20,795 nucleotides of DNA. Origin: a virus. The stretch is from the IMG/VR virus record IMGVR_UViG_3300037069_000487, positions 1 to 20,795 of that record, one strand, 5' to 3'. Within the stretch, counting starts at the first letter, position 1. Every line of letters starts with the position of its first letter. The translations under genes and the position numbers were made by a program. Below the pieces are notes generated by a model that worked only from the letters and a program-made list of their open reading frames with translations, did no database searches and was not told the DNA's origin. This document shows positions 2,591 to 20,772 of the stretch, in pieces.

Positions 2591-3439
2591 GTGACCATGA
2601 CAATGCAAACCCCGCTAGCGATCGCCGAACCGACGGCCGAGTGGGTCGACATCACGCCCGAACTCGCCGCCCTATGGTTAGAGTCGAACGCCGACAACCG
2701 GTCGATTCGCAACGCGGCCGTGATCGGCTACATGAACGACATAATGTCGGGCCGTTGGATGGTGACCGGCGAAACGATCAAGTTCGACTTTACCGGCCGG
2801 CTTATCGACGGTCAGCATAGGCTCTCGGCGATCGTGCGTTCGGGTCTGACAATCCGATCGCTTGTCGTGCGCGGAATCGACCCGCTAGCGCAACGGGTTA
2901 TCGACGTCAACATTCGCCGCACGGCCGGCGACCAACTCAGACTGTTGGGTCTCGTCGAAGGCTCGAACGTTATGGACATTGCCAGCGCCGCGCGGCTTGC
3001 GCTCGCAATCGACGCCGGCTATTTGACCCGATACGGCAACGTGCGCGGCGTGATCTCGCACGCCGATATTTTCGAGTGGGTCGAGACACACCCGGAGATC
3101 GGCGACCACGCGAAGAATGCCCGGCGCCTGTATAACCGGCTAGGCGCCGCCCCGTCGCCGCTCGCCTATGCAATGTGGCGGCTCGCCCAAATCGACGCCG
3201 AAGACGCGGCCGAGTTTTTCCAATCGACCGCCGAGTTCGCGACCAGCGGCGAAGGCGACCCGCGGGCCGCTCTCATTCGGGTTTTCGCCAACACTGAGAA
3301 CCGGTTGTCTCGACTCCCGGGCGCCGTAATCGGCGTGACGTTCACGGCATGGAACGCGTGGCGAGACCAACTCAAAATCAAGTCGATTCCGCTGATCGAT
3401 CCGAAGGGCGGATCTCTTACCATCCCGCAACCGATCTAG
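2591..3439 (+). CDS. ParB/DGQHR-domain-like phage protein
   Basis: A 282-residue protein with a GTG start at 2591. GGAAGG (2578-2583) is 7 nt upstream, whereas the ATG at 2597 would be 13 nt away. The N-terminal third contains the hallmark FTGRLIDGQHRLSAIVRSG (about residues 60-79), the nucleotide-binding-type signature of the ParB/sulfiredoxin/DGQHR superfamily. It is preceded by the usual 'number of N-x-R ... G-x-W ... T-G-E-x-I-x-F' lead-in (SIRNAAVIGYMND, GRWMVTGETIKFD). The rest is helical, without an HTH I can identify. Related proteins are common in actinophages and are labelled ParB-like, with nuclease or partition roles not firmly shown. It is the only gene of its transcript, opposite in direction to both neighbours and closed by a strong terminator, a layout typical of lysogenically expressed or 'moron' genes. 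Confidence 0.8.
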   Translation: MTMTMQTPLAIAEPTAEWVDITPELAALWLESNADNRSIRNAAVIGYMNDIMSGRWMVTGETIKFDFTGRLIDGQHRLSAIVRSGLTIRSLVVRGIDPLAQRVIDVNIRRTAGDQLRLLGLVEGSNVMDIASAARLALAIDAGYLTRYGNVRGVISHADIFEWVETHPEIGDHAKNARRLYNRLGAAPSPLAYAMWRLAQIDAEDAAEFFQSTAEFATSGEGDPRAALIRVFANTENRLSRLPGAVIGVTFTAWNAWRDQLKIKSIPLIDPKGGSLTIPQPI

Positions 3440-7197: not shown

Positions 7198-7515
7198 TTA
7201 ACCGGCCGGCTTCGGGTCGACTTCCGGGTCGGACGCGTCGTCGATCACGTCGTCGTCGTCGTCGTCGGGTTCGTGGCCGAGATCGCGCGCGAGCTTCGAC
7301 ACGTCGTTATGCTCCACGTCGGGTTCGCTCTCGTCGGCGCTCTCGACGTCGGGGTCGTCGATCTCGTCGGCCCGGGGTGCGTCGCCGCCGTTTTCTTCGT
7401 CAGGATCGTTTCTACGGTCGGCGACGTCGGTTTCCGGTTCGTCTTCGGTCGCCGGCGGCTTCACAATCTCGACCCGGTCGGCGTCGATCTCCACGTCGGG
7501 TTTTTCGTCGGTCAT
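7198..7515 (-). CDS. Highly acidic low-complexity small protein
   Basis: A 105-residue protein with a strong ribosome site (GAGGGA just before ATG 7515). Asp and Glu make up a very large share, including EPDDDDDDVIDDASDPEVD near the C-terminus. There is little hydrophobic content and no fold I can recognise, so it is probably disordered. The run of Asp codons appears in the DNA as a GTC/GAC triplet tract (7,245-7,267). It is the last gene of the late operon, behind the tail genes. Possible roles are a DNA-mimic, a chaperone-like tail accessory or a charged linker; none can be chosen from sequence. Confidence 0.7.
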   Translation of the reverse strand: MTDEKPDVEIDADRVEIVKPPATEDEPETDVADRRNDPDEENGGDAPRADEIDDPDVESADESEPDVEHNDVSKLARDLGHEPDDDDDDVIDDASDPEVDPKPAG

Positions 7516-7532
7516 TCCCTCTTCCCTCTCTC

Positions 7533-8249
7533 TCATTCGACGCCGGCCGCGGCGCGAAGCGCCGCTAGCTCTTGTTCGATCGCTAACAAATCCTCTTCCG
7601 ACGTCGCCGCCATTTCTTGCGACGACGAACCCGGCATAGAGATAGCTTCGATAACGCCGTCGGTCACAGTACACGTCGAATTGACAGACGCCATCCCCCC
7701 CACGGTATACGTCATAACCCCGTCGGCCGCGGCCGTGCGCGGCACTTCGACAAAGCACGCGTTAGCCGTCGAGCCGGACACAAAGACCATTGCATAGGTC
7801 GCCGTCGGGGTGAGGTTCACGCCGTTTTCGATCAGTCGGAACGTCGCCGTGCGCGACGCGCCAGACGATGAATTCCATGCGTTGATCCGCGCGACCACGT
7901 TATATTTCTGCCCGGCCTTCACGTTGACCGCGAGCGACAGACCCGGCAACGCGACGGATGCCGTCGTGAGTGTGTACGTGATCGGCGTATACGCCCGGCC
8001 GAGTTCGCGCGGCACGTCGAGCGCTTCGGCAAGTGCCCGGATCGCGTCGGCGCCCTGCGCGATTGGGTCAGTCGGCGACGGGTACGGCAGACCCGACGGG
8101 GTCGCGCCGGCAAGTTGCGACGGCGCGTCCAGATAGGCCGCGTGCATTCGGTCGATAATCCGTCGTTGTTTCTTCGGGTCGGTCTCGCCGGCGAGTTGCG
8201 CCCGGAGTTGCGCCCAGTCTCCCGGCGAAACCGTGTCCAGTGTGGACAT
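7533..8249 (-). CDS. Minor tail protein, probable distal tail or fibre component
   Basis: A 238-residue protein starting MSTLDTVSPGDWAQLRAQLA; the ATG at 8249 overlaps the stop of the tail hub gene (TAATG). Residues 1-85 are helical with DPKKQRRIIDRMHAAYLD. Residues 85-215 are a Thr/Ser/Val-rich beta sandwich-like region (ITYTLTTASVALPGLSLAVN, VARINAWNSSSGASRTATFR, TYAMVFVSGS). The C-terminus is a short acidic coiled coil (TSEEDLLAIEQELAALRAA). The layout (helical anchor, beta domain at the tip) and its place after the hub fit a small tail-tip or fibre protein. The family is not recognised. Confidence 0.7.
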   Translation of the reverse strand: MSTLDTVSPGDWAQLRAQLAGETDPKKQRRIIDRMHAAYLDAPSQLAGATPSGLPYPSPTDPIAQGADAIRALAEALDVPRELGRAYTPITYTLTTASVALPGLSLAVNVKAGQKYNVVARINAWNSSSGASRTATFRLIENGVNLTPTATYAMVFVSGSTANACFVEVPRTAAADGVMTYTVGGMASVNSTCTVTDGVIEAISMPGSSSQEMAATSEEDLLAIEQELAALRAAAGVE

Positions 8250-10717
8250 TAGAACTTCCCTCCCGGCGGCGCCGCGACGCCGACCATATCGAGCCATGAA
8301 ATTTCCGGGTCGAAGTCGACCCAACGCCACGCCGGCGGAACCCCGTTCCACGGCAACGATTCGCCGACGGCGACCGCGTTAGACACGGTCAACGACAACG
8401 ACCACGCGCCGCCGGCGAAGAGATATTCGCCGCCTTCGAGATAGACGCCGACCGTCGGCGCGACCGGCGACCACGTCGGCATGTCGACAAGCCGGATTGG
8501 CAGACCGATTCGCGACGTGCCGTCCAGTAGCCGCATCATCATGCGCACGGCTTCGTCGTCGACAACTTCCAACGACGCGTCGTCGACAATTTGGAACCCG
8601 GACACGCGCCAACCGGTCGAGCCGGTACGCGCCAGAATTCGGGTCGCGACGTCGGCGGCGTCGGCCGACGTCGTCAAGAGCGTCGAAACCGAGATCCGGC
8701 GTTTGCCGTGGTCGACTTCCAATTCGGCGTCGACCAACGTTTCCGTGTGTTCGTTCGTGGTCGGTTTGCCTTCGTCGTCGACCGCTTGTTCGAGCCATTG
8801 CACGGCGACCCGGGTAGACACGTCCGACACGGATTGTTCCCACCGGACCGGGTCACGTAGCACGTCGCACGCCGAGATATCGAGCACGGCCGCGGCCGAC
8901 CCGCGCGGGATAATGACCACGACCCCGTCGACCATTGCGAGCGTGAACAGTGCGGCCCGGTTCGCCGGATCTTCGACCCGGAGATAGGCGCCGGTCGTCG
9001 AGTGCACGGCCGACCATAAGACCGCGTCGACCGATTGCGCGAGATCTCGCAACAGACCGGCGGTTCCCTGCGCGTCAACGTCTTGATACGAAACCGGGAT
9101 GCCGGCGACCGTGTCGTCGATAATCGACGTGACGTCGAACCCGGACAACGCGACGATGCGCAAGAATCGGTCTTCCATGCTCTCGACCGACCACGGTTCG
9201 TCGCCTACGTCGATATTTTCCATATCGGCCGTAAAATCCTGCGCGGTCACGTGCACGACCGGGCATCCGATCGCATCGTCGAATTCGGCTTCGAGATCGG
9301 TAACCCGGCCGGAGAAAACCGAGACCCGGCGCGGGGTGCCGCCGGCCGGCGCGTTAACGACGACGTCGTCGACCGACGCGACCGCATAGTCGAGCCATGA
9401 CCCCGGCGTATTCGCCCAACTCGCCGGCCGTACCTCTTCGCTTGTCGACGCGTTCGGCGCCGCGGTCCAACGGTAGATAAGACCGCCGGCCGGCGGGGTC
9501 GAGCCGTCAAACGATCCGCCGGTCGTCGGCGCCATTTCGACGATCGCGTCGTCGACCCAAAATGTAGTCGCGGCAACGACCGTTGTTCTAACCATGATTT
9601 GCGCGCCAGTGATCGGGTTAAACGCCGCCGACGGCAGACCGTCGAACTTCACGAATTCCCACGCCCCCGACGCGGTAATGTTCGTCGTGCCCTGCCCGGC
9701 CGAAGACCCGTTGAACCGGGTAAGCAATGTGAGTTTGACGCCGGCCGCGGCTTTAACCCAGATGCCGAACGAATAGAGCGGCCCGGAACTCAGCGGCGCC
9801 GGGGCGGCGACTTGTACGCCTTCCATTGCGACCGCGCCGGGGGTCACAACCTTTACCGATTTCGTGCCAGTATGCGCGACCGCCGGGTCAATTGACGAGA
9901 CCGCCGCACTGATATTCGAGATATTCGACAGACTCGAATTCTCGAAGTTCGGCCCGGTTATGAAATTCGTTCGGGTCGTCACGTCGTGGAAGTCAAGCCA
10001 CGTCGGCAAGAGGTCGACGACAACGGCGACGCCGACCCAATAGCCGGCGTGCGCGGCGACATAGTCGAATTCGAAGACTTCCCACCCGCCGCCGGCGGTC
10101 GTGACGATGCCGGCGCCTTCGAGCAATTGCGGGGCGGCGCCGGTCGGGTCGGGAAAGAGAATCGGGCAGATTTGCACCCGGGCGCCGGCCGGCGCGCGCA
10201 CGGTCGCGCCCAGCGACCACGGCGACCCGACTTCCGGTTGCGGTACCGAATCCCACGCGTCGACTTCGGCCGAGAATTCGGCCGGCGGGAACCCGGCCCA
10301 CATGCGCTTCGTCGGGTCGGTCGGGGTCATAAGGGCGGCTTGCGCGCCGGTCGCGTGCCGGGTCGAGTAGGTAACTACGGCGTTCGCGTGCACACTCGTT
10401 ACCGGCGCGTTCGGCGCGCCATTCTCGAAGCCGGGGTCGAGTACTAACGACGCGTCGGGGTCGACGATCTCGACGCCGGTTGAATAGACGTCGATCGGTA
10501 CCCCGGTCTTGAATTGCTGAATGAACGTCGCTCCCCCGGGGGTGTCCATGACGTCAAACGTGCATGACGCCGGTTCCGGTTGGTCGAGCGTCGTGGAGCG
10601 CCCCCACGTGATTTTCAGACCCGACAGACCGGTCGGCGCTAAGACGTCGTCGCCGGGCGTGCCGTCGGGCAGACGCTCGCCGTCGACATAGACGCGACAA
10701 TCGATTCCGGTTCCCAT
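8249..10717 (-). CDS. Minor tail protein/tail hub with two carbohydrate-binding-like inserts
   Basis: An 822-residue protein directly downstream of the tape measure (TAATG overlap), as expected for the baseplate hub. Residues 1-90 are a Dit/hub-like beta region (LKITWGRSTTLDQPEPASCTF). Residues about 92-245 and 251-395 are two jelly-roll modules of CBM_4_9 style. Both open with a [LN]-x-[DP]-x-[FP]-[FE]-E-N type strand (LVLDPGFENG, FITGPNFENS), and the second includes AHTGTKSVKV and FWVDDAIVEM. A short unit, GSFDGSTPPAGG...YRWTAAPNASTS (401-425), follows; this is common in actinophage tail proteins. The remainder (440-822) is the hub-type beta/alpha body. It should sit at the tail tip and bind the host surface, the CBM-like parts probably to cell-wall glycans. 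No separate Dit, Tal or long fibre is seen, so this protein may combine those jobs. Confidence 0.85.
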   Translation of the reverse strand: MGTGIDCRVYVDGERLPDGTPGDDVLAPTGLSGLKITWGRSTTLDQPEPASCTFDVMDTPGGATFIQQFKTGVPIDVYSTGVEIVDPDASLVLDPGFENGAPNAPVTSVHANAVVTYSTRHATGAQAALMTPTDPTKRMWAGFPPAEFSAEVDAWDSVPQPEVGSPWSLGATVRAPAGARVQICPILFPDPTGAAPQLLEGAGIVTTAGGGWEVFEFDYVAAHAGYWVGVAVVVDLLPTWLDFHDVTTRTNFITGPNFENSSLSNISNISAAVSSIDPAVAHTGTKSVKVVTPGAVAMEGVQVAAPAPLSSGPLYSFGIWVKAAAGVKLTLLTRFNGSSAGQGTTNITASGAWEFVKFDGLPSAAFNPITGAQIMVRTTVVAATTFWVDDAIVEMAPTTGGSFDGSTPPAGGLIYRWTAAPNASTSEEVRPASWANTPGSWLDYAVASVDDVVVNAPAGGTPRRVSVFSGRVTDLEAEFDDAIGCPVVHVTAQDFTADMENIDVGDEPWSVESMEDRFLRIVALSGFDVTSIIDDTVAGIPVSYQDVDAQGTAGLLRDLAQSVDAVLWSAVHSTTGAYLRVEDPANRAALFTLAMVDGVVVIIPRGSAAAVLDISACDVLRDPVRWEQSVSDVSTRVAVQWLEQAVDDEGKPTTNEHTETLVDAELEVDHGKRRISVSTLLTTSADAADVATRILARTGSTGWRVSGFQIVDDASLEVVDDEAVRMMMRLLDGTSRIGLPIRLVDMPTWSPVAPTVGVYLEGGEYLFAGGAWSLSLTVSNAVAVGESLPWNGVPPAWRWVDFDPEISWLDMVGVAAPPGGKF

Positions 10718-17921: not shown

Positions 17922-19466
17922 CTAAAAGATCTGAGATTCCGGCGTCGGGTGTCCGTGTTCCGACGCCCATAGTGCGAGCGTCGCCGCGACCAACGGCGTT
18001 TGAGAGACCGCGACCCGGCGTTCCCATTGCCACGACCGGCCGGGGGTGCGTTGCGCCGACGCCGCCGCGTTGTTCAGCGCTTCGTGATAGTCCGACCGGC
18101 GGATCTCGACGGCGCCTTCGCGAATGCCGGCGTCGAAGAGGTAGCACGCGGAAATAAAGTCGGCGCTTCGCATGGCGATCAGCTTGTCGGTTACGGCCGA
18201 CACGCCTTCGAGTCGGCCGATAAGTTCATGCCCCGGCCCGTAGTCGTCTATCGCGATCGCGGCGACGTCGGCCCGGTCGGCGAACCGTAAGACTTCGTCG
18301 AAGACCCAGTCGGCGCCGGGTCTATGGTCGAGTACTTCCACGATGCCGTCAACGTGACTCGCGAACGTCGCCGACCGGCCGAACGGGTCAATATCGAGAC
18401 CGACGCCGGCCGGCTTGTCGGATTGCGGTTCGTCGGTTCCGGCGCCGGCCCAGACGTCGCGGTCGAACGCCGCCCAGAGAATCGCGGCCCGGCCCGACGG
18501 CCACCGGCCGAGATATTCGGCGGCGAAGTGATCGTGTCCGAGTTCGACGAGATCCGCGCGCAATTCTTCGGGCCGAATGATGCCGTCGTGCAACGCCGGG
18601 TAATAGTCCCACCAGACCGACTCTTCGGTCGGGTCGGCGTCGTCAGGGATAGTGAACTCGAAATAGGCGTTGCCGGATCTCACGTCGGCTTCGACCGCGC
18701 GCCGGCCGCGGTCGCGGATCTGCGCGAGCCACGTTGTCTTATCGTTCAGCATCGTTACATTCGACGATCGCCAGACTTGCCCATGACCGCGCAGAGATCC
18801 GAGCGTCGGCCGCGCCGCCGCCATGAACTCTTGCCCGCGCGTCGCCGCCCAGACCAAGACTTCGTCGAAGCCGAGATGTAGCAGACCGTCGCCGCGCACG
18901 GCCGAGACCGTCGGCGCGAAGATCTGAATAACACTAGACCGCGACGCCTTCCAATCCCGGCCGAGTGGGTCGAACGTCAAATAGGTATCGCCCATAGCGG
19001 TACGCAAGTTAGACCCGGCTTCCCATTCCGCCGGCATCATGGATTCTTCGAACGGTTCGACTAGGTCTTTCAAGAATCGTTGTCGTGCCTTCGTCAAATT
19101 CTGCGCGGTATGCGCGCCGAGAAAAGGCACCCGAACGCCGTTGTCGAGCGTGACCGGGCCGAGTAATCCGCGGTAGAGCGGAACCCCCATCATGGTTACC
19201 GTCTTGCCGCAACGCCGGCCGACGATCGTGTCGACGGTCGAATAGGCGAAGGGACTATCTGGCCCGTCGACCCGTTCCAAGCCGACGTCTAAGACGTATT
19301 GTTGCCACCGGGTAGTCTGCCGGCCGGTTCGCGCGGCGATCGCTTCGCCGGCATCCGGGCCGTCGGTCCAACGCTCGAAGCTACGCCGCGTCCGGTGGGT
19401 CGGCAGGATGCCGGCGGCGCCATTCGGCGGCGCGTTCGCTTCGGAGGATAGCGAATTCGTCGTCAT
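17922..19466 (-). CDS. terL: Terminase large subunit
   Basis: A 514-residue packaging ATPase and nuclease. The Walker A is VGRRCGKT (about 82-89), Walker B LLHLGFDEV (195-203, with D201 and E202), and the coupling motif region lies around WRSSNVTMLND. The C-terminal RNase H-like nuclease shows GVGLDIDPFGRSATFA (D358, D360) and AIAIDDYGPGH (D407, D408). The N-terminal TTRWQQYVLDV adenine-binding-like lead is typical, so the ATG at 19466 is kept although it overlaps terS by 86 nt. It packages DNA through the portal. Its length and motifs are intact. Confidence 0.95.
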   Translation of the reverse strand: MTTNSLSSEANAPPNGAAGILPTHRTRRSFERWTDGPDAGEAIAARTGRQTTRWQQYVLDVGLERVDGPDSPFAYSTVDTIVGRRCGKTVTMMGVPLYRGLLGPVTLDNGVRVPFLGAHTAQNLTKARQRFLKDLVEPFEESMMPAEWEAGSNLRTAMGDTYLTFDPLGRDWKASRSSVIQIFAPTVSAVRGDGLLHLGFDEVLVWAATRGQEFMAAARPTLGSLRGHGQVWRSSNVTMLNDKTTWLAQIRDRGRRAVEADVRSGNAYFEFTIPDDADPTEESVWWDYYPALHDGIIRPEELRADLVELGHDHFAAEYLGRWPSGRAAILWAAFDRDVWAGAGTDEPQSDKPAGVGLDIDPFGRSATFASHVDGIVEVLDHRPGADWVFDEVLRFADRADVAAIAIDDYGPGHELIGRLEGVSAVTDKLIAMRSADFISACYLFDAGIREGAVEIRRSDYHEALNNAAASAQRTPGRSWQWERRVAVSQTPLVAATLALWASEHGHPTPESQIF

Positions 19467-19728
19467 CCGACGCCGCCGGCAATGGTTCGGGTAGCTTCGA
19501 CCGGGCCGACAGTAGCGCGGTCAGCATTTGCGCCTTTGCCACGCCGCGCGCGAGCGACGCCCCCCGGGCCGCTTCCAGCGCGATCGCGCAGTCGAGTTCG
19601 TGCCACGGCTTCACGACGTTTTGTTCGCGAAGCGCCGCGATCGTTGCTTCGGCCGCTTCGACGAGATCCGACGGCGCGCCTAAGTCGTTCGCTTCGAGTG
19701 CGAACATGGGAACCGTCGACCGTGCCAT
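19381..19728 (-). CDS. terS: Probable small terminase subunit
   Basis: A 115-residue helical protein, MARSTVPMFALEANDLGAPS. It includes EAAEATIAALREQNVVKPWH, ELDCAIALEAARGASLARG and VAKAQMLTALLSARSKLPEP; the pattern 'alpha helix, VKPWHELD, helix' is common in small terminases upstream of HK97-type terL. The acidic/basic tail overlaps the large subunit's start. It would recognise the packaging site. No clear ribosome site precedes 19728; an alternative ATG is at 19707. The assignment rests largely on position and helical build. Confidence 0.72.
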   Translation of the reverse strand: MARSTVPMFALEANDLGAPSDLVEAAEATIAALREQNVVKPWHELDCAIALEAARGASLARGVAKAQMLTALLSARSKLPEPLPAASDDDEFAILRSERAAEWRRRHPADPPDAA

Positions 19729-19754: not shown

Positions 19755-20243
19755 CTAATCGGAAGGGGGCGTGACCGGTTCCGGCGTCGGGGTGTCGACG
19801 TGCCGGCCGCGAGATCCGCCGCCAGACCGGAGACCGCCAAGCGCGAAACCAACGACGATCGCGCCGGCGCCGATCAGAAATTCGGTTAGCGTCGTCGCCG
19901 TCGTCGGCTCGCCCGGGATAAACCAAACGACAATCGCGAGCACGATAAGCGCCGCGCCGACGGCAAGCGCCCAGAGCATCGACCGCGTCGACAGGCTCGA
20001 AGAGGTCGCGCCGATCTCGGCTTCGACTTTGTTAGCGACGTCGGCAATGAGAGCGTTGCGCCGGGTCGACGCTTCCGACACGAGGGTCGACACCTGATCT
20101 TCGGTTAGACCGGTCGACGAGCCGTAGCCGGCGATATTGGCTTGATAGCTGAACCCTTCCGAGCCGCTCGCCGACGTGTATTTCTTGCCCGTATATTCGC
20201 CGACCAGTGCGACGGTTCCGGAGGGAACTTGAACGATGCGCAT
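19755..20243 (-). CDS. Possible internally started holin-like product of the lysis gene
   Basis: In the same frame as the lysin, ATG 20243-20241 (Met156) is preceded by AAGAGGA (20257-20251) at a 7-nt spacing, as good a ribosome site as any in this genome. It would give 162 residues: a beta unit (MRIVQVPSGTVALVGEYTG), a helical stalk, two membrane spans (LWALAVGAALIVLAIVVWF, then FLIGAGAIVVGFALGGL) and a charged tail. That is the size and layout of a class II holin, which the window otherwise lacks. The start is inferred; the ribosome site is visible. Confidence 0.5.
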   Translation of the reverse strand: MRIVQVPSGTVALVGEYTGKKYTSASGSEGFSYQANIAGYGSSTGLTEDQVSTLVSEASTRRNALIADVANKVEAEIGATSSSLSTRSMLWALAVGAALIVLAIVVWFIPGEPTTATTLTEFLIGAGAIVVGFALGGLRSGGGSRGRHVDTPTPEPVTPPSD

Positions 20244-20708
20244 TTCGTGATCCTCTTTCGTGTTCGTTGGGGGTGTCGGGGTGTCGTCCGGTTGCGATCG
20301 CATGACCGCGTCGAAATCGACGTTGCCGTTATTGCCGTAGCCGTGCGAGTGATTCCGGCGGAACGAGATATGCAGATGCGGCCCGTAGTAGTAATCCGAG
20401 CCATAGCCGGATGCGCCGGAATAGCCGATAACGGTTCCCTGCGCGACCCAGTCGCCGGCGTAAGTCGCGATCGAAGACAAGTGCAGGTAGTCAGACCCGG
20501 AACCGTCGTCGTGGTCAATGTGAATCGTCCGACCGCCGCCGCCGCCGTTGTCGTTCGACGCATCCGTGACCGTGCCGGCCGCGATCGCCTTTACCGGATC
20601 GCCGACGGCATCCATGTAGTCGGTTCCCGGGTTCACTGAACCCCGGTTTACGTGGTCTTGGAAACTATCCGAGACCGAATGAATCGGAGTCGGGTATATA
20701 TACCCCAT
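19755..20708 (-). CDS. Lysis protein: M23 endopeptidase fused to holin-like membrane segments
   Basis: A 317-residue protein with a GGAAGGGAAGG ribosome site. Residues 10-140 are an M23/LytM-type zinc peptidase: NPGTDYMDAVGDPVKAIAAG (26-45), DYLHLSS (73-79, H76) and GPHLHISFR (109-117, H111, H113). The first metal His of the usual H-x(3)-D is Asn26 here, with D30 kept. A Pro/Thr linker (140-152) leads to a small beta region, MRIVQVPSGTVALVGEYTG (156-174). A helical part (203-240) follows, then two membrane spans (about 244-265 and 274-293) and a basic then acidic tail. It probably cuts peptidoglycan cross-links in lysis. No other holin is seen. A good internal ribosome site at codon 156 could make the C-terminal half alone. 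Confidence 0.88.
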   Translation of the reverse strand: MGYIYPTPIHSVSDSFQDHVNRGSVNPGTDYMDAVGDPVKAIAAGTVTDASNDNGGGGGRTIHIDHDDGSGSDYLHLSSIATYAGDWVAQGTVIGYSGASGYGSDYYYGPHLHISFRRNHSHGYGNNGNVDFDAVMRSQPDDTPTPPTNTKEDHEMRIVQVPSGTVALVGEYTGKKYTSASGSEGFSYQANIAGYGSSTGLTEDQVSTLVSEASTRRNALIADVANKVEAEIGATSSSLSTRSMLWALAVGAALIVLAIVVWFIPGEPTTATTLTEFLIGAGAIVVGFALGGLRSGGGSRGRHVDTPTPEPVTPPSD

Positions 20709-20737
20709 AGTTTGCGCCTTCCCTTCCGTTGTCGAAG

Positions 20738-20772
20738 CGGTACCGATTTAGATTTCGCGACCCGTGTGTAAA
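20738..20772 (-). promoter_or_regulatory. Candidate late promoter upstream of the lysis/terminase operon
   Basis: On the minus strand TTTACA (20772-20767), a 16-nt spacer and TAAATC (20750-20745) precede the first gene of the late operon, with a leader of about 30 nt carrying the GGAAGGGAAGG ribosome site. The rest of the 87-base end segment (20,709-20,795) has no gene. It may also hold the packaging end (cos), as the first late gene and terminase are next to it. Confidence 0.45.

Follow-up and report, generated by a model that had tools for sequence, protein, structure and literature searches.

An M23 lysin gene with an internal start and a C-terminal membrane hairpin as a candidate for lysis from a single reading frame

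Endolysin and holin are normally encoded by separate genes, so that the enzyme and the timer are controlled apart. In the virus record IMGVR_UViG_3300037069_000487, one gene joins a peptidase domain to a membrane hairpin and carries a possible second start between them. This raises the question of whether one frame can supply both a lysin and a holin, and whether lysis could rest on it. The whole stretch of 20,795 nt was analysed and is called the window in the following.

Gene layout and the internal start

The full-length gene (19755..20708, minus strand) encodes 317 aa and consists of an M23 peptidase domain, a linker, a soluble module and a two-helix membrane hairpin, as determined from the ORF, Pfam and hydropathy. 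A fusion of an M23 peptidase to a two-span C-terminus had been proposed in the preliminary description, with the strand unstated. It was confirmed on the minus strand; a plus-strand reading of 19755-20708 was ruled out, as it contains stops. Residues 26–121 (20346..20633, minus) match Peptidase_M23 (PF01551) with an E value of 2.5e-20 and 72.9 bits (curated cut-off: 28.7). The two spans comprise residues 246–264 (19917..19973, minus) and 274–292 (19833..19889, minus), with an acidic loop before the second span and an Arg-rich tail after it. Here and below, membrane spans were assigned from hydropathy in a simple sliding window rather than by a trained predictor. The gene is preceded by the Shine-Dalgarno (SD) sequence GGAAGGGAAGG (20717..20727, minus; anti-SD duplex: -12.2).

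The same fusion is present in the sister phage IMGVR_UViG_3300036651_000212 (L001/L006), and the two proteins are 79% identical along the length of the gene. A sequencing error or a lost stop codon was rejected as the cause of the fusion because the sister gene reads open through the same region. With regard to a SAR endolysin anchor, hydropathy revealed no hydrophobic segment before residue 246, and neither an N-terminal signal nor an anchor helix was found. The AlphaFold models of the long and the short product were poor (mean pLDDT: 35 and 52, respectively).

In the peptidase domain, Asp30, His76, His111 and His113 are retained, and the first histidine of the HxxxD motif is replaced by Asn26. 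This position is a histidine in solved M23 enzymes and an asparagine in all eight aligned members, although the latter conservation is partly due to selection, as the search patterns contained VNPGTDY. The motif in the window is NPGTD (20619-20633, residues 26–30); in the EugeneKrabs-type lysins of Microbacterium phages, the same position is a glutamate and the other catalytic residues remain. Given an asparagine in place of a zinc-ligand histidine, the peptidase activity of the domain is putative.

The M23 domain was also seen outside this gene type. In L002 (IMGVR_UViG_3300036651_000097, 7815-8420), a domain 68% identical to that of the window occurs with a small N-terminal domain and no C-terminal module. 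This phage is of another kind, putatively phi29-like by gene order and an ATPase-like neighbour, and shares its sample of origin with the sister phage; its M23 domain is a putative case of lysin domain exchange between unrelated phages. Members of the same M23 subfamily with 48–55% identity and N-terminal export-like sequences were found in L057 (4001-4402), L058 (1489-1887) and L059 (4001-4372), which are Corallococcus, Pyxidicoccus and Planctomonas genomes.

An internal start had been placed at Met156, exactly at the domain boundary, with AAGAGGA 7 nt upstream, and both points were borne out. The ATG (20241..20243, minus) sits directly past a proline-rich linker, and the SD lies at 20251..20257 (minus). 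Initiation there would give a predicted product of 162 aa (19755..20243, minus), comprising the soluble module and the hairpin without the peptidase. The soluble part (19995..20243, minus) is called the 'ALVGE' module, and homologous modules were found in L001, L015, L055, L056 and L067. No significant match of the module, which ends in the membrane hairpin, to Pfam or PHROG binding domains was obtained. With the 162-aa part as a query, no relatives were found in phages, plasmids or bacterial genomes, and the IMG/VR search returned the sister phage only, until the alignment was widened.

Within 19 genes of the window, we calculated the energy of pairing with the 16S tail at 187 in-frame internal codons (ATG, GTG or TTG). 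The duplex at Met156 (-8.7 kcal/mol) was the strongest of all 187 and close to those at the starts of the MCP (-9.3) and MTP (-9.5) genes. The equivalent start of the sister phage reached -9.3. There, the internal SD is kept inside a diverged linker: GAAAGAGGAT..CGAAATG is unchanged, though the linker cannot be aligned codon by codon; as the two phages are close relatives, this conservation has to be read with caution. When the peptide (K-E-D) was held fixed, random synonymous codons did equally well in 21% of trials (P = 0.21). Because the codons are not significantly biased under this condition, the internal SD may be left over from a gene fusion, or it may result from the linker being acidic. 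Judged by sequence, the start at Met156 is more than chance, and translation of the short product is predicted.

Related lysins and their membrane genes

For comparison, IMG/VR was searched with the M23 part, next with the module and next with a second lysin type found there. This gave 14 distinct lysins with the plan catalytic domain, linker and C-terminal module. The M23 group consists of the window, L001, L014, L015, L016, L019, L023 and L062; L055, L056, L067, L069, L070 and L071 have another catalytic domain. The latter is characterized by the pattern SWAGWCxSFVxRAGG ... GHVAID, which recurs in related contigs (L055 3530-4348, L056 3524-4219, L067, L069, L070 and L071). By motif, it is probably a cysteine peptidase; in the two members scanned (L055 and L056), no match to Pfam or PHROGs was found. 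Catalytic domains of the two groups were 20–34% identical in forced global alignments, meaning that they are unrelated by sequence. Among the C-terminal modules, about eight kinds unrelated in sequence were distinguished.

An ATG with an SD (-6.2 to -11.6) was present at the first residue of the module in all 14 lysins. By comparison, a random 19-codon window in the coding ORFs of these phages contains such an ATG in 3.1% of cases, and in 0.8% at -8 or better. In M23 relatives with C-termini of the peptidoglycan (PG)-binding type, a linker SD-ATG was found in none of nine. Moreover, the mRNA at the internal ATG was more open than the gene average in 14 of 14 lysins; the fraction of codons that were equally or more open was 0.01–0.19, and the combined P value was 1e-7 with relatedness ignored. 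The homologous 'ALVGE' module occurs with the M23 domain (window, L001 and L015) as well as with the other catalytic domain (L055, L056 and L067), and modules have therefore been swapped across the SD-ATG.

An in-frame start with a ribosome site between the last catalytic domain and the C-terminal module is what defines a type II internal start, and this is the arrangement in the window. The preliminary description had proposed that the internal start frees a 162-residue holin. The fusion and the internal site stood, the latter strongly, with 13 other phage lysins sharing it. The idea that the start exists to release a holin did not stand, since ten relatives without a hairpin share it. The internal start would be a general two-product lysin device of the known type II, not a holin device.

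The hairpin itself was present in four of the 14 lysins (window, L001, L014 and L015). Each of the ten hairpin-less lysins, including L067 with one weak hydrophobic stretch, had a small membrane gene near the lysin gene. In L055 and L067, a two-span gene lies directly downstream of the lysin, and in L016, a two-span gene overlaps the lysin start. L019 has both a one-span and a two-span gene nearby, L062 has a holin-like gene of 64 aa with an SD of -10.0, and the nearby gene of L056 matches the PHROG holin phrog_8269 (E 3.9e-30). No neighbouring membrane gene was found at the lysins of the four hairpin members. Except for the tape measure, no other membrane ORF was found on the coding strand of the window and L006; L014 and L015 each have a one-span protein of 51–58 aa far from the lysin. 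The best evidence for the hairpin as a possible substitute for a holin is this complementary distribution.

With two spans and 162 aa if started at Met156, the layout is that of a class II holin. In the window, L001 and L015, arginines occur before span 1 and after span 2 and the loop is acidic, as read by eye. The acidic loop and the Arg-rich tail suggest an N-in/C-in topology of the hairpin. The gene had no holin match in Pfam or PHROGs, and a hairpin profile did not score above shuffled controls against an annotated actinophage holin family (the Neferthena gp26 group). From the topology, the position and the lack of another candidate, we infer that the short form may act as a holin.

Genome context and host

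The preliminary description had noted no other holin or lysin. Scanning the main and the small genes for family matches agreed with this, as none was found in the 20.8-kb record, and there was no other small membrane gene. It is plausible that lysis rests on this single gene. The next gene downstream (19381..19728, minus) encodes 115 aa without a family match and is, by position, probably the small terminase subunit; it is followed by the large terminase subunit (17922..19466, minus). An element common to the window and the sister phage, TTTACACACGGGTCG..GAAA...AAATCGGTAC (20740..20772, minus), lies directly upstream of the lysis gene. This roughly 30-nt element was found in no other IMG/VR contig and is possibly a late promoter or an end-of-genome signal.

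The absence of a holin depends on the completeness of the record. The record is classified as 'linear' and, like L006, has no completeness estimate. On its left side, the sister contig L006 lacks about 2 kb, and a holin may be missing from incomplete records. Beyond the lysin, the contigs end 23 nt (window) and 22 nt (L006) past the aligned end. The homologous base at which both stop suggests a physical end of the genome. Near the opposite end of the record there is an HNH gene, an arrangement shared with related small cos phages (e.g. SallySpecial). If the ends of the window are joined in a circle, a TGA falls exactly at the junction after the leftmost gene, which is compatible with near-completeness. 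The record is likely complete enough to call this gene the only lysis gene.

The nearest named relatives of the large terminase are small phages of Arthrobacter, Gordonia, Curtobacterium and Cutibacterium, and those of the peptidase are Microbacterium phages. As these are actinobacterial phages, the host is presumably actinobacterial, probably a member of Microbacteriaceae.

The position of the lysis gene differs between members. It lies directly after the tail genes in L014 and L015, and before the terminase in the window and the sister phage. A small acidic gene follows the lysis gene of L015, and its counterpart in the window is still found behind the tail genes (window 7198-8351, L015 3582-5175). 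The lysis gene appears to have moved. Elsewhere in the record (2591-3439, plus), a 282-aa protein matches phrog_5931 (E 4.5e-62); it is encoded on the strand opposite to its neighbours.

Known systems and alternative explanations

Internal starts are predicted in about half of the endolysins of Gram-positive phages, and four were confirmed in a survey (Pinto et al. 2022, PMC9430671); starts of type II free a binding domain (PMC12203907). In the main text of the survey, neither 'transmembrane' nor 'Actinobacteria' appears. Like Lys170, LysIME-EF1 and CTP1L, the window gene has an in-frame SD-ATG that separates the catalytic domain from the C-terminal module, and the short product shares the stop codon. 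However, the short product of these enzymes is a soluble cell-wall-binding subunit, whereas that of the window bears a two-span hairpin.

A similar layout, an N-terminal catalytic domain without a signal peptide and a C-terminal two-helix membrane domain, is described for Enc34, Siskin and M4Lys of chi-like phages (PMC8943055, PMC7143992). M4Lys and Enc34 show that a lysin of this layout can by itself be lytic or toxic when overproduced, and M4Lys alone lyses E. coli under this condition (PMC7143992). Unlike the window gene, these lysins belong to phages of Gram-negative hosts and have a PHA02564 catalytic domain instead of M23. The Enc34 cassette has a separate holin-like gene, and an internal start is unmentioned for all three in the accessible parts of the reports.

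The putative fusion of a holin with the major capsid protein in EpicDab (PMC9671378) is likewise from a small actinophage without a separate holin gene, and it has a fused two-span N-in/C-in segment and an internal ATG. There, the partner is a capsid protein, liberation by proteolysis was proposed and no lysin takes part in the fusion. Two spans, a short loop and charged ends predicted inside are also known from class II holins (phage 21 S type, N-in/C-in) and from LysF1a of cluster F1 mycobacteriophages (PMC13056207). Those are stand-alone small genes, whereas in the window, about 85 soluble residues precede the hairpin, which forms part of a fusion with a lysin. The closest relatives of the peptidase domain in cultured phages are the Microbacterium phage M23 lysins (EugeneKrabs gp38 and relatives; about 40% identity). 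Their C-terminal half is unrelated to that of the window, and separate membrane genes follow the lysin. Among open-licence papers, we found no natural lysin–holin fusion in a Gram-positive phage, only engineered fusions or unrelated uses, and no account of a lysin from such a phage whose short product is itself a holin-like membrane protein.

We consider it unlikely that the gene encodes an ordinary two-polypeptide endolysin of type II that is anchored in the membrane, in which the short product would be a binding or multimerisation partner of the full-length enzyme, the hairpin would do no more than concentrate the enzyme at the membrane and the holin needed for lysis would lie outside the record. 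The ten relatives with internal starts yielding soluble modules would fit this, as would CTP1L, LysIME-EF1 and Lys170, which act as complexes of long and short products (PMC12203907, PMC9430671), and the record may be incomplete. However, the membrane gene seen near the lysin in all hairpin-less members is missing there in the hairpin members, and the record appears to span the distance between an HNH gene close to one end and the terminase at the other, like small cos phages (SallySpecial). Phage lambda S107/S105 is a dual-start holin whose forms differ by two residues. If the window gene worked in this way, the long form would be an antiholin-like tethered lysin delaying lysis and the short form would be the holin. 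One hairpin is common to the two products, and dual-start holins are an established principle, but here the forms differ by a whole enzyme domain, and the internal starts of the hairpin-less relatives argue against timing as the original purpose; such a timer is improbable.

A very improbable case is that a lysin and a downstream gene were joined by stop loss and that the internal SD is a leftover of little or no use. Only the full-length protein would then matter, as proposed for the holin-independent M4Lys and Enc34. These endolysins with C-terminal hairpins act full-length (PMC7143992, PMC8943055), and the non-significant synonymous-site result speaks for a relic as well. Decay would be expected, yet the SD-ATG is kept in 14 of 14 lysins over about eight unrelated modules, and the sister phage has retained it although the linker around it changed.

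The explanation that we favour, and consider fairly probable, is a two-polypeptide endolysin gene in which the C-terminal module has turned into a membrane protein, so that it makes a membrane-tethered lysin and a free holin-like short form. It is based on the domain layout, the internal SD-ATG, its recurrence across unrelated modules and the lack of another lysis candidate in the record. For the remaining points, namely translation of the short form, its topology in the membrane, the opening of a hole and the route of the tethered peptidase to the wall, we infer the following course. Late in infection, the frame would yield the 317-aa protein of M23 domain, module and hairpin and, via initiation at Met156, the 162-aa protein of module and hairpin. 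Both would become inserted into the cytoplasmic membrane, their two ends facing inwards, and the peptidase would begin tethered on the cytoplasmic side. The short product, probably with the long one, would oligomerise and open the membrane in a holin-like manner, and the tethered peptidase would reach the wall via the membrane lesion.

A further-reaching version is possible but somewhat doubtful, and we put it forward tentatively. This one gene would be a complete lysis system for a Gram-positive host, with one frame and two starts giving a tethered endolysin and a holin. It would have arisen by fusion of a holin hairpin to the swappable C-terminal module of a two-polypeptide endolysin, and the two products would jointly set the lysis time. 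If one frame encodes both functions, lysis timing must come from the ratio of the two starts. For the family as a whole, about eight unrelated modules and two unrelated catalytic domains are joined, always at an SD-ATG, which suggests module exchange via a built-in second start. Such exchange would help to explain the persistence of internal starts in phage lysins.
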